64,000 nt of DNA. Source: Halichondria panicea. Lineage: Eukaryota > Porifera > Demospongiae > Suberitida > Halichondriidae. The stretch spans positions 1,364,501-1,428,500 of the forward strand of contig NC_087385.1 of assembly GCF_963675165.1 (NCBI RefSeq), in the 5' to 3' direction. Under the pieces are notes generated by a model. That model was not told the origin of the DNA, made no database searches, and saw only the letters and a program-made list of their open reading frames with translations. This document shows, one piece after another, positions 1,444 through 49,083 of this stretch. Position numbers and translations under genes: made by a program. Every line of letters starts with the position of its first letter. Positions within the stretch are counted from its first letter, which is position 1.

Positions 1444-1779
1444 TGACGTCATGTCTTCATAACCATTCCCTAAAACTTAATATCCCTATATTAGACAAAT
1501 ATCGGCTTATGACAGCCCTTGCTTGACCACAACAATGCTACATACAAGTATGCATGTGCATTAATCTTAATGCGGAAGTGTGTGGGTTGTGTTGCATTTA
1601 TAAGTGACTGCACTGACTGAAATCTTCATTTTCTAGCCTTGCAATCGTCGCTTGCCGGAGGCTCTAGCTGTTGGATCTGTTTAGTTTCTGCAGCTCTACG
1701 GTATGTACATAGATCTAATGTAACCGTCATTATAATTATAAACAGTGGCCTTGTTGCTTTCGCAGATCAAAATATCAAG
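1444..1779 (+). promoter_or_regulatory. upstream region and 5'UTR intron of alpha-tubulin copy 2
   Basis: This block recurs almost unchanged upstream of copy 3, which suggests it carries the promoter. It contains a perfect palindromic CRE-like TGACGTCA (1444-1451), an ETS-like GCGGAAGTG (about 1572) and a TATA-like TTTATAAG (about 1598). A 5'UTR exon follows, then a 65-bp intron (1701-1765, GTATGT...CGCAG) ending 14 bp before the ATG. Transcription start and factor binding are inferred from motifs only. Confidence 0.6.
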
Positions 1780-3279: not shown

Positions 3280-3687
3280 TGACGTCATGTCTTCATAACC
3301 ATTCCCCTGTTTCCACATAAAAATTAATATCCCTATATTAGACCATAGATTGAAGAGTTAACCCTAACCCTAACCCTAACCCTAACTCTTCAATCTATGA
3401 TTAGACAAATATCGGCTTATGACAGCCCTTGCTTGACACAACAACGCTACATACATGCAGTACGCATGCGCATTAATTTTAATGCGGAAGTGTGTGGGTT
3501 GTGTTGCATTTATAAGTGACTGCACTGACTGAAATCTTCATTTTCTAGCCTTGCAATCGTCGCTTGCCGGAGGCTCTAGCTGTTGGATCTGTTTAGTTTC
3601 TGCAGCTCTACGGTATGTACATAGATCTAATGTAACCGTCATTATATAAACAGTGGCCTTGTTGTTTTTGCAGATCAAAATATCAAG
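3280..3687 (+). promoter_or_regulatory. upstream region and 5'UTR intron of alpha-tubulin copy 3
   Basis: Duplicate of the block upstream of copy 2: TGACGTCA at 3280-3287, ETS-like GCGGAAGTG about 3483, TTTATAAG about 3509, and a 5'UTR intron at 3613-3673 (GTATGT...TGCAG). It differs from the copy-2 block mainly by a 56-bp inserted palindrome at 3344-3399. Confidence 0.6.
3344..3399. mobile_element. 56-bp palindromic insertion with telomere-repeat core
   Basis: The arms are perfect 17-bp inverted repeats (CATAGATTGAAGAGTTA, 3344-3360; its complement, 3383-3399). The 22-bp loop (3361-3382) consists of CCCTAA telomere-type repeats. The insertion is flanked by a 7-bp direct repeat ATTAGAC (3337-3343 and 3400-3406). 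The otherwise near-identical region upstream of copy 2 has one uninterrupted ATTAGAC, so the empty site is visible in the same window. That supports insertion with target duplication. The mechanism is unknown. Confidence 0.8.
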
Positions 3688-23700: not shown

Positions 23701-25955
23701 TAAATTTCTTTTTTTGCACCATAACTTTGGTGCTGCTACATAACTGGTATAAATAGACAGAATGTTTATGTGAAGAGTGGGTATGTGTGAGAGATGGATG
23801 TTGATCTTAACCTGATCGTGCTCATAATTGCTGTTACGATAGTAGCCCTTGTAGCTATGCTCAAGGGCTATGAATTTCAAATGCAAACTAAATACATGAA
23901 TATCTCTCTCACTGCCCCTAACCCTAAGTGCTCTGTGTTAGAACCCAGAAGGTATCATCACAAGCCTTAGTGCTATTATAATAGTGTATGTATGTTACTT
24001 AAAATTTTTTTTAACCCTAATTAAAAAGTAAATACAGAATGACATACATACCGTATAGCGCGAAATTTTTGAGGCACTTATATTTCGTGGATTAGCCTCT
24101 AAAAGCTATTTCGTTGCACAATGTTCGCGGAATGACTGCTTACTGGAAGCCACGCCTTTAAATCTATGCATGTTATAGCAGGTACTTCAATTTTCGTGGA
24201 CTTAATTTTCGTGTAGGGTTCTAACCCACGAAAATTAAGCCCCTCGAAAATTTCGCACTATACAGTAGTCAAAAGATCATCATCGTTCAACCTGATGCTG
24301 TGCTGATTCATTGATATACCCTGGATCCAGAGACACGATTAACCTTAGCTAATAATTAGCTAATTATCACGACCTTTTAATGAAATTCTTTGAACAATTT
24401 ATTCTTTATAACCTCTACATAGTGGACACAAGAGCTAGAGCAAAGTAAGCCTTTTCTCCTACTGGAGAGATAGATACCCCTATGGCCAAGAAGATCGAAG
24501 ATCCCTGTGAGAAGCATCTCAGGCACTCTGATCTTGTCTCAGCTTCTAGCACCCTTTTATTTTTGTAGTTTGCTCTGTGCCTGCAAGAATTGTCTGTCAC
24601 TCATACTACAGTACTGTTCTGTAGAGGTTATAAAGAAAGAAAAGATGAATCGTTCAAATAATTTCATTAAAAGGTCGTGATAATTAGCTAATTATTAGCT
24701 AAGGTTAATCGTGTCCTCCCTCCTCTGCCCTGGATCTTTCATCATTTGATCAGTCTTGATTCTTGAGACAAAATAATAATCAATCAGCAAGAAGCGAGAA
24801 ATTCTAGCTTATTCACTTTATTTATTTATTCTAGCTTACCACGCCCATTTTCACCAACGCTTTGGAAACGCGTGAAGTATAGCAGTGCTTACAAGCATTA
24901 ATTAGCAGCCTTCAACTTCAAAAACGTTGCTTAGACTAAGCCTTAGTTCAAAAAAGCTTCTAATGTGCCTTCAAACGATTGTTTGTTATGCGTGTTAAGT
25001 ACTAATGCATTAGATCCAAAGGTCAGGAATGCAGTACGCAATAATTTTCTAGTGTCATTATTCTTGACCTTTTGACCCTATCGAACCTCCTCTGAATACA
25101 GTTATTCGTTAAACATTCATATCTTATGAACGATACATTGAAATCACTTGTAACCACCTCCTGCAGTTGTCCCCCCTAATCAGCCATTGCTTATAAACAT
25201 TCACAATTATGTATACAAAATTAATAATAATTATTATGAAGGCACAAAGTGACTAAGACACTATTATAAGTGTTGTCAATGTTCTCACGGTGACATGGTT
25301 TAATCAAGATCAGCAGAACTTGTCTGCGAGGTCCTATCGGCATACGCCCTTTTCCCGGGAAATGTTTTCTTCACCTACACACATGTTTACAAGTTCAATG
25401 GTGGCTCGTGATGTCCACTGCTATACTAACTAGACTAAGCAAACCATATGAAGCTATCAGGCTACAAATGCTACTCAAGTTACTTACCACTGTCCAGGTC
25501 CAGAAAGAAAGATGGTCCATCTCTTTTTCTAGCTTAGCTTCCTACATGTATCTAGCTATGATCCTCAATATTCTCACTGTCTAGCTGAACGAACCTCTCA
25601 GAGGTTGTACTACGAAGATATTGCTACCAATATATCAAAAGGTCACTTTCAATAGGAGATAGGATCTAGGCTATAACTACATTTGTTTCTTTCTGCACAG
25701 GCTACATGTTAGGGAACCTACCTGCTGATAAAGCTGGGATCATTTCTAAAGAGCACGTGTGTGAAGGTACGTGAGTCTACTCCTCAGATCTCCTATTGTA
25801 ATTAAAGGCAGCTATTAATAATTATGTATGTGATCCATTGACTCTCTCTCCATCACGCCCCCACACATGTAGCTCTGACGCTGTTGCTAAGAGACCCGTC
25901 TCCCCTGGTGAGAGCCAGCACAGCTGAAGCTATGAGCCTCCTCTATGACTACTAG
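7893..25955 (+). CDS. MROH1: MROH1, maestro HEAT-like repeat protein 1 (34 exons, one 2-bp frameshift)
   Basis: Giant HEAT-repeat protein; MROH1 and its C. elegans relative HPO-27 are linked to lysosome fission. Exons: 7893-7929, 7984-8129, 8183-8477, 8750-8848, 9050-9201, 9538-9678, 10029-10121, 12717-12795, 12858-12971, 13347-13422, 13662-13889, 14312-14456, 14772-14954, 15085-15140, 15442-15678, 15875-16080, 16560-16626, 16682-16890, 17271-17400, 17523-17636, 17785-18028, 18262-18362, 18759-18911, 19223-19377, 19606-19762, 20050-20207, 20445-20697, 20921-21070, 21276-21464, 21945-22100, 22456-22590, 22830-22932, 25701-25766, 25873-25955. Ignoring 2 extra bases in exon 10, these give about 1635 residues (human 1641). 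Similarity to human MROH1 as I remember it runs end to end: TKQDNMQWVF, QLPKLLPLIAQLYKKH, VLWPFLIEFL, AMSGLARIFEKID, NIALRIRPCFEK. The extra GT (about 13379-13382) puts a stop in frame; a sequence error or a real frameshift cannot be told apart here. Confidence 0.95.
9938..10028. repeat. (CA)n tract ending at the exon 7 acceptor of MROH1
   Basis: An almost pure CA dinucleotide run whose final ACACAG is the 3' splice site of exon 7 (exon starts at 10029). It occupies the place of the usual pyrimidine tract. Confidence 0.9.
10907..12206. repeat. fold-back minisatellite element in MROH1 intron 7
   Basis: Short 6-9 bp units built on GGTTGCTCTGGT run across about 10935-11050. The complementary units (ACTAGAGCAACCAGACCA) run across about 11750-12120 in opposite orientation. 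The outer ends are also inverted copies: GTGTAGTAGTGTAGTGTACGG on the left and the complement of CCGTACACTACTATACAC on the right. The centre has no recognisable transposase. No target duplication was found, so fold-back transposon or inverted minisatellite are both possible. Confidence 0.6.
14673..14728. repeat. (CA)n tract in MROH1 intron 12
   Basis: Pure CA dinucleotide run about 45 bp upstream of the exon 13 acceptor. Confidence 0.9.
15374..15441. repeat. (CA)n tract ending at the exon 15 acceptor of MROH1
   Basis: A CA-rich run with a CCCACACTCTCC interruption, ending in ACACAG at the splice junction before exon 15. Confidence 0.9.
16111..16238. mobile_element. MITE-like element, CAGTG(G)AACC family, copy 1
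   Basis: Inverted termini CAGTGAACCTGTCTAGTGTGG and the complement of GACCACTAGAGACAGGTTTC enclose 128 bp in intron 16 of MROH1, flanked by TA on each side (16109-16110, 16239-16240). There is no coding capacity. It looks like a non-autonomous Tc1/mariner-type element, by the TA flank only. Confidence 0.55.
16978..17156. mobile_element. MITE-like element, CAGTG(G)AACC family, copy 2 (degenerate)
   Basis: Intron 18 of MROH1. The left end ACAGTGAAGTTGTCTA pairs imperfectly with the right end TAGACAAGTTCCACTG. The TA flank is kept on the left only. Confidence 0.45.
17674..17779. repeat. CA-rich tract before MROH1 exon 21
   Basis: Interrupted CA/CCCA repeats that become pure CA and end 5 bp before the exon 21 acceptor (TAACAG, exon from 17785). 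Confidence 0.85.
18977..19160. mobile_element. MITE-like element, CAGTGGAA family, copy 3
   Basis: Intron 23 of MROH1. The left end AACAGTGGAATCCCTCTT and right end AAGGTGTTCCACTGTT are inverted repeats. The interior is AT-rich with no coding potential. Confidence 0.5.
24051..24265. mobile_element. 215-bp MITE with TA target duplication
   Basis: Imperfect inverted termini of about 40 bp: CCGTATAGCGCGAAATTTTT on the left, and on the right the complement of a sequence beginning CTGTATAGTGCGAAATTTTC; the similarity continues into an inner TTTCGTGG. TA dinucleotides flank it (24049-24050, 24266-24267). It lies in intron 32 of MROH1. No open frame is present. A Tc1/mariner affiliation is inferred from TA only. 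Confidence 0.7.
24328..24727. mobile_element. 400-bp MITE with 9-bp target duplication
   Basis: Flanked by a perfect 9-bp direct repeat CCCTGGATC (24319-24327 and 24728-24736). The element begins CAGAG and ends CTCTG. Long inverted arms (about 90 bp) include ACACGATTAACCTTAGCTAA and the inner TATAACCTCTACA. The right arm carries a 7-8 bp insertion near its tip. The central ~200 bp encodes only a 61-codon frame with no recognisable domain. A 9-bp duplication is typical of Mutator-like elements, but no transposase supports that assignment. Confidence 0.8.
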
Positions 25956-26921: not shown

Positions 26922-31544
<4,623 letters not shown>

Positions 31545-49046: not shown

Positions 49047-49083
49047 CATAGATAGTAGAGGTAGGAATCCTCTACTATCTATG
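49047..49083. mobile_element. 37-bp CATAGAT...ATCTATG hairpin
   Basis: Perfect 15-bp arms CATAGATAGTAGAGG / CCTCTACTATCTATG enclose a 7-bp loop. The terminal heptamer is the same as in the palindromes at 3344 and 34454. No target duplication is visible. It lies between carbonic anhydrase and TMEM19, 106 bp before the TMEM19 start used here. The last ATG of the right arm is in frame with TMEM19. Confidence 0.45.

Follow-up and report, generated by a model that had tools for sequence, protein, structure and literature searches.

The 56-bp sequence at positions 3344-3399 of a 64,000-nucleotide stretch of Halichondria panicea DNA (the window) is very probably an excision scar of a MITE family whose copies are abundant in this genome. 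The telomere repeats in its core were probably supplied by telomerase. The best explanation overall, and one that we consider likely, is that a P-superfamily-like MITE was excised from this position and that telomerase filled the resulting break.

At 3344-3399, perfect 17-bp arms enclose CCCTAA repeats, with the 7-bp sequence ATTAGAC on each side (Table 1). Read as an inverted repeat, the insertion comprises a left arm CATAGATTGAAGAGTTA (3344-3360), a core (3361-3382), and a second arm (3383-3399). The arms, the CCCTAA core, and the flanking ATTAGAC described in the initial annotation are exact in the letters at their coordinates. Its description of a 56-bp perfect palindrome holds for the arms, which are perfect inverted repeats, but not for the whole 56 bp, because the two strands of the core differ, one reading CCCTAA and the other TTAGGG.

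The product of the neighbouring gene is one that we take to be alpha-tubulin, and an empty site had been proposed upstream of a second tubulin copy. Alignment to this paralogous upstream region confirmed it, with a single ATTAGAC at 1490-1496 and a gap that corresponds to a 63-bp insertion (56+7). The aligned bases are identical at 451 of 463 positions (97%), with a few other small gaps elsewhere in the same alignment. In a genome search with the upstream region, only the tubulin-copy paralogue was listed besides the region itself, as two pieces. Because ATTAGAC is duplicated here, the comparison points to an insertion at 3344-3399 rather than a precise loss at 1490-1496. Random expectation for 131 Mb with equal base frequencies is ~0.3 perfect 17-bp arm pairs with loops of at most 40, and the chance of a given 7-bp duplication is 6e-5.

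Table 1. The insertion, read as an excision scar, and its empty site (window coordinates).
Feature	Position	Strand	Remarks
Left target-site duplication, ATTAGAC, 7 bp	3337..3343	+	Its T (position 2) and A (position 6) are common in the 17 intact copies and the 48 scars
17 nt apparently kept from the MITE left end, the putative left 3' tail, CATAGATTGAAGAGTTA	3344..3360	+	
Telomeric filler, GGTTAG repeats (minus-strand reading), extending the putative right-end tail in register	3361..3381	-	
18 nt apparently kept from the MITE right end, CATAGATTGAAGAGTTAG, ending in telomere register	3382..3399	-	
Right target-site duplication, ATTAGAC, 7 bp	3400..3406	+	
Empty site with one ATTAGAC, in the paralogue of this region upstream of the preceding tubulin copy	1490..1496	+	Alignment

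The arm of this insertion is the end of a ~500-bp MITE family characterised by 7-bp duplications and by inverted ends of 33 bp. A genome search placed the 17-bp arm, with at most one mismatch, at 519 positions, while the reversed control gave 0. Of 572 candidates for a 516-bp query, 40 were scored; each spans 512 or more of the 516 bases at 97-100% identity and has the 33-bp inverted ends. At loci read around the arms, the copies are mostly 505-528 bp long and are flanked by 7-bp duplications. These duplications are perfect in 17 intact copies, not all of them independent, since several have flanks in common. Perfect duplications also border two longer forms of 1.1 kb (L052, L053); two further end pairs, 2 kb apart (L054, L055), have no matching duplication. 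The intact family resembles MITEs in its ~500-bp length, inverted repeats, and constant-length duplications, with open frames examined in L052-L055 only. The 56-bp object differs in that, as an excision product, it would be a remnant of a MITE and not a MITE copy. A search of a viral collection returned one exact arm match, in one contig, which we set aside as chance.

Several other repeats were observed alongside this family. At L056 (C3:4356300-4357600), two right ends lie in tandem at a distance of 236 bp, and ATTATAG follows both, being also the 7 bp that flank the left end; this is possibly a duplication formed in repair or transposition. Variant MITE ends cluster at 2.12-3.09 Mb of C7 and 1.16-1.47 Mb of C12, with GTTAGC at 10 places and GTTAGAGA at 6, which suggests local duplication of one variant. 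In the window, a 37-bp inverted repeat at 49047-49083, CATAGATAGTAGAGG...CCTCTACTATCTATG, lacks a flanking 7-bp duplication and is possibly the scar of another, related family; another sequence opening with the same 15 bp lies at L098 (minus strand, near 1643). The window also holds a long CA/TG-rich simple-repeat tract (27969-29479) with spurious open frames in several frames.

The insertion upstream of the tubulin copy has many short relatives. By querying non-MITE-body sequence after the arm and then reading those loci, with a script applied to 146 distinct end contexts, we found at least 48 short insertions of 17-56 bp, representing 27 distinct sequences, between 7-bp duplications. The duplications are perfect in 44 and carry one mismatch in 4. 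By exact match, each insertion retains 16-19 bp from one MITE end and 0-17 bp from the other. In raw counts, 33 of the 48 show an overlap of 1-2 bp between the two ends and 3 have abutting ends; the remaining 12 have no overlap and contain extra or altered bases. Certain sequences recur with different duplications, namely CATAGATTGAAGAGTTG (17 bp, seven times), CATAGATTGAAGAGTTAGACTCTTCAATCTATG (33 bp, six times), and CATAGATTGAAGAGTTATG (19 bp, four times). We infer that these short forms are excision products.

The script returned 50 events, from which L015 and L068 were removed as intact MITEs with a chance nearby 7-mer. The resulting 48 is an undercount, as a 25-bp scar (L163) was left out by the duplicate filter, and scars without a recognisable duplication (e.g. 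L103, L118, L175) and one-sided ends were excluded. L142, L149, and L152 form one count; these three scars have a common flank and the duplication CTAGAAC, and appear to be one scar copied within a larger repeat.

The scars show an upper retention limit near 18 nt. The longest end retained by exact match is 16 nt in 15 scars, 17 nt in 14, 18 nt in 7, and 19 nt in 12; in 9 of these last 12, the 19th base could derive from the other side. Beyond this length, a genome-wide pattern search for short forms with 20 nt or more of one end and, within 30 nt, 5 bp or more of the other gave a single place; the right-end part of this pattern also matches 26 of the 48 scars. Retained lengths are exact matches, so point changes shorten some of them, and the profile is partial: it covers longest ends of at least 16 nt, with at least 5 bp of the other end for the class of at least 20 nt, and describes the upper limit only. 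Loci were read at 32 of the 52 listed places in the 16-nt class (all 21 followed by G or T and 11 of the 31 followed by C), 59 of 59 in the 17-nt class, 12 of 20 in the 18-nt class, and 24 of 31 in the 19-nt class. Among the 14 places of the 20-nt class, one was read and is an intact MITE (L102), one lies in a scored intact MITE, and one is the short form mentioned above. A fixed staggered cut predicts just such a limit at a fixed distance from the end, even though the MITE end itself is conserved over 33 bp.

Both the scars and the duplications resemble those of the P superfamily. The cut made by P transposase lies 17 nt within the element and produces 3' tails of 17 nt (PMC7776569, PMC10983969). 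The kept duplications and longest ends of 16-19 nt in the 48 scars correspond to the pattern expected of P-superfamily scars, in which the duplication is kept and ends extend to about 17 nt. The 7-bp duplications of the 17 intact copies, not all independent, likewise fall within the 7-8 bp of the superfamily, in which zebrafish Pdre2 has 8-bp target duplications. Furthermore, a common motif is present in the duplications of scars and intact copies, with T at position 2 in 84 of 96 and 31 of 34 strand readings, respectively. Galileo, a member of the P superfamily, has 7-bp duplications whose consensus, GTAGTAC (PMC2775673), is compatible with this motif. It differs in having long, internally repetitive inverted repeats, as against the 33-bp repeats and body of mostly 505-528 bp here, where no transposase link was found.

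With respect to a transposase source, the P transposase family PF12017 has 5 matches over the cut-off in the genome. One of these was read (974 aa, E 4.8e-7), and the surrounding 3.5 kb contains no clear end, with a single weak arm-like match at 4 differences. No exact arm was among those listed within 10 kb of three of the matches (two on C1, one on C3); the remaining two are on C6 and C7. At the PF12017 loci checked on C1 and C3, no transposase gene bounded by MITE ends was found. Since neither a transposase with these ends nor a listed exact arm near the C1 and C3 matches was found, we do not claim membership of the P superfamily. Rather, the parent family appears to behave like a P-superfamily MITE, and its transposase would be P-type, an assignment that draws on the scars, the duplication length, and the motif.

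The telomeric core distinguishes the window copy from the other scars; it is the only telomeric one among the 48. On the minus strand, it consists of 18 nt of the right end (...GAGTTAG), followed by GGTTAG units and then the left tail. Its length equals 32 + 4x6, that is, a 32-bp class of scar joined through TA plus exactly four hexamers. The 32-bp scar, in which two 17-nt ends share TA, is found with duplications at L104, L119, and L130, with one base changed in each. Perfect repeats are in register with the adjoining 3' end, as expected of telomerase-type addition, although the free 3' end is itself deduced. Palindromes with both full arms exact and a gap of 0-30 nt occur at two loci genome-wide, of which only the window copy is telomeric.

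As a class, telomeric tracts are not linked with this MITE family. On contig C1, TTAGGG-type arrays occupy the start and lie near the opposite end, and 12 interior sites with at least 3 telomere units were listed (L039-L050). None of these 12 tracts has an arm closer than 4 differences, and none is directly flanked by a 7-bp duplication within the 60 bases searched, where longer repeats are distant or overlap telomere units. Three of the C1 places (L043, L044, L045) share one and the same short telomeric tract and have near-identical flanks, so that the tract is carried inside another repeat.

These features can be accommodated in a single sequence of events. A ~500-bp non-autonomous P-superfamily-like element would have inserted upstream of the tubulin copy, duplicating ATTAGAC. 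Transposase would then have excised it with a long stagger, so that both chromosome ends kept ~18-nt 3' tails (...GAGTTAG-3'). The right tail, in telomere register, could have been extended by telomerase with about four TTAGGG units. The new ...GGGTTA end may have annealed via TA to the left tail ...GTTA, and microhomology end joining would have sealed the break. According to the initial annotation, repair would not readily explain perfect arms together with a target duplication. Repair does account for both if transposase made the break, as the arms would be the two retained transposon ends and the duplication would date from the original insertion.

We favour telomerase as the filler source because the tail ends in telomere register. 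Telomere repeats are added at breaks that expose nucleotides in telomere register, a feature reportedly enriched in mammalian telomeric insertions (PMC2246262). The register is modest support, since the transposon end itself finishes in GTTAG, and on the right-tail side it has a chance of ~1 in 6 even with captured telomeric DNA.

The main rival accepts the same excision scar and takes the filler to be a fragment of existing telomeric DNA captured in end joining, which we regard as unlikely. Interstitial telomeric tracts, such as the 12 on C1, are present in the genome, and capture is named in PMC2246262 as an alternative that its authors had considered. Against this, the tract carries on the register of the tail, without a faulty unit, and is as long as a recurrent 32-bp scar with whole hexamers added; extension of the GTTA(G) end gives both register and length directly. 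The initial annotation had also suggested telomere-type DNA captured during break repair; telomere-type DNA at a break was the better half of its guess, while capture as the source is retained here as the rival.

An improbable alternative is that polymerase theta built the filler as a templated insertion, copying nearby sequence repeatedly, and that slippage later regularised it. Templated insertions are common at P excision breaks (PMC2895639), and the fillers of two other scars look locally copied by eye: that of L126 repeats AACTCTTC from the arm, and that of L089 resembles its flank. However, no nearby tandem template is present in the window, with no other tandem CCCTAACCC within 20 kb and the nearest one outside the element 20 kb away, at 23916.

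Less probable still is that a resident MITE was deleted internally, through gap repair that copied only its ends instead of plain joining of cut ends. After P excision, repair synthesis often stays incomplete before the ends are joined (PMC2895639). Interrupted copying should stop at many distances, but retention drops at 18-19 nt instead, with only the one longer short form from the pattern search above. The least probable reading, the micro-transposon with a telomere-like loop proposed in the initial annotation, draws on the perfect arms, exact 7-bp duplication, and empty site, but the arms belong to the ~500-bp family, no second telomeric copy emerged from the search of exact arms with 0-30 nt gaps, and the other short forms vary like repair products, though some recur.

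Telomerase-filled excision of a P-superfamily-like MITE has partial parallels in known systems. Drosophila P excision scars arise by end joining of 17-nt 3' tails with the duplications kept (PMC2895639), and they resemble the present scars in having duplications on both sides, at most 17 nt per end, and short microhomology joins and insertions. The scars described here differ from them in having a 7-bp duplication, up to 18-19 nt retained, a MITE as parent, and, in one case, a telomeric filler. Telomeric sequences inserted at double-strand breaks (PMC2246262) similarly have repeats at the break and in-register 3' end nucleotides, and a minority in its table have a flanking duplication. The text consulted does not say what caused those breaks; here, 47 sister scars allow both the break-maker and the structure of the ends to be deduced. 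Among the matches listed in a search of mainly open papers, none dealt, by title or the start of the abstract, with telomeric repeats inside a transposon excision scar.

Telomere tracts inside chromosomes are generally taken as marks of telomerase-assisted break repair, but what kind of break came first is seldom known. Drosophila is not known to have telomerase, so a telomere-repeat filler would not be expected there. If our interpretation is correct, a named DNA cut, the long transposase-made 3' tail, would be linked to a telomeric insertion, which suggests that telomerase, besides extending chromosome ends, can act where a transposon has broken the DNA. The sister scars form a natural catalogue of how one recurrent break is repaired in this genome. 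Since the ends of this MITE family happen to finish in GTTAG, which would be a natural telomerase primer, we also raise, as a doubtful and speculative proposal, that the long 3' tails left by P-type transposase are regularly contested between telomerase and end joining. Were this the case, such breaks could sometimes become new chromosome ends, besides giving rise to internal telomeric scars.
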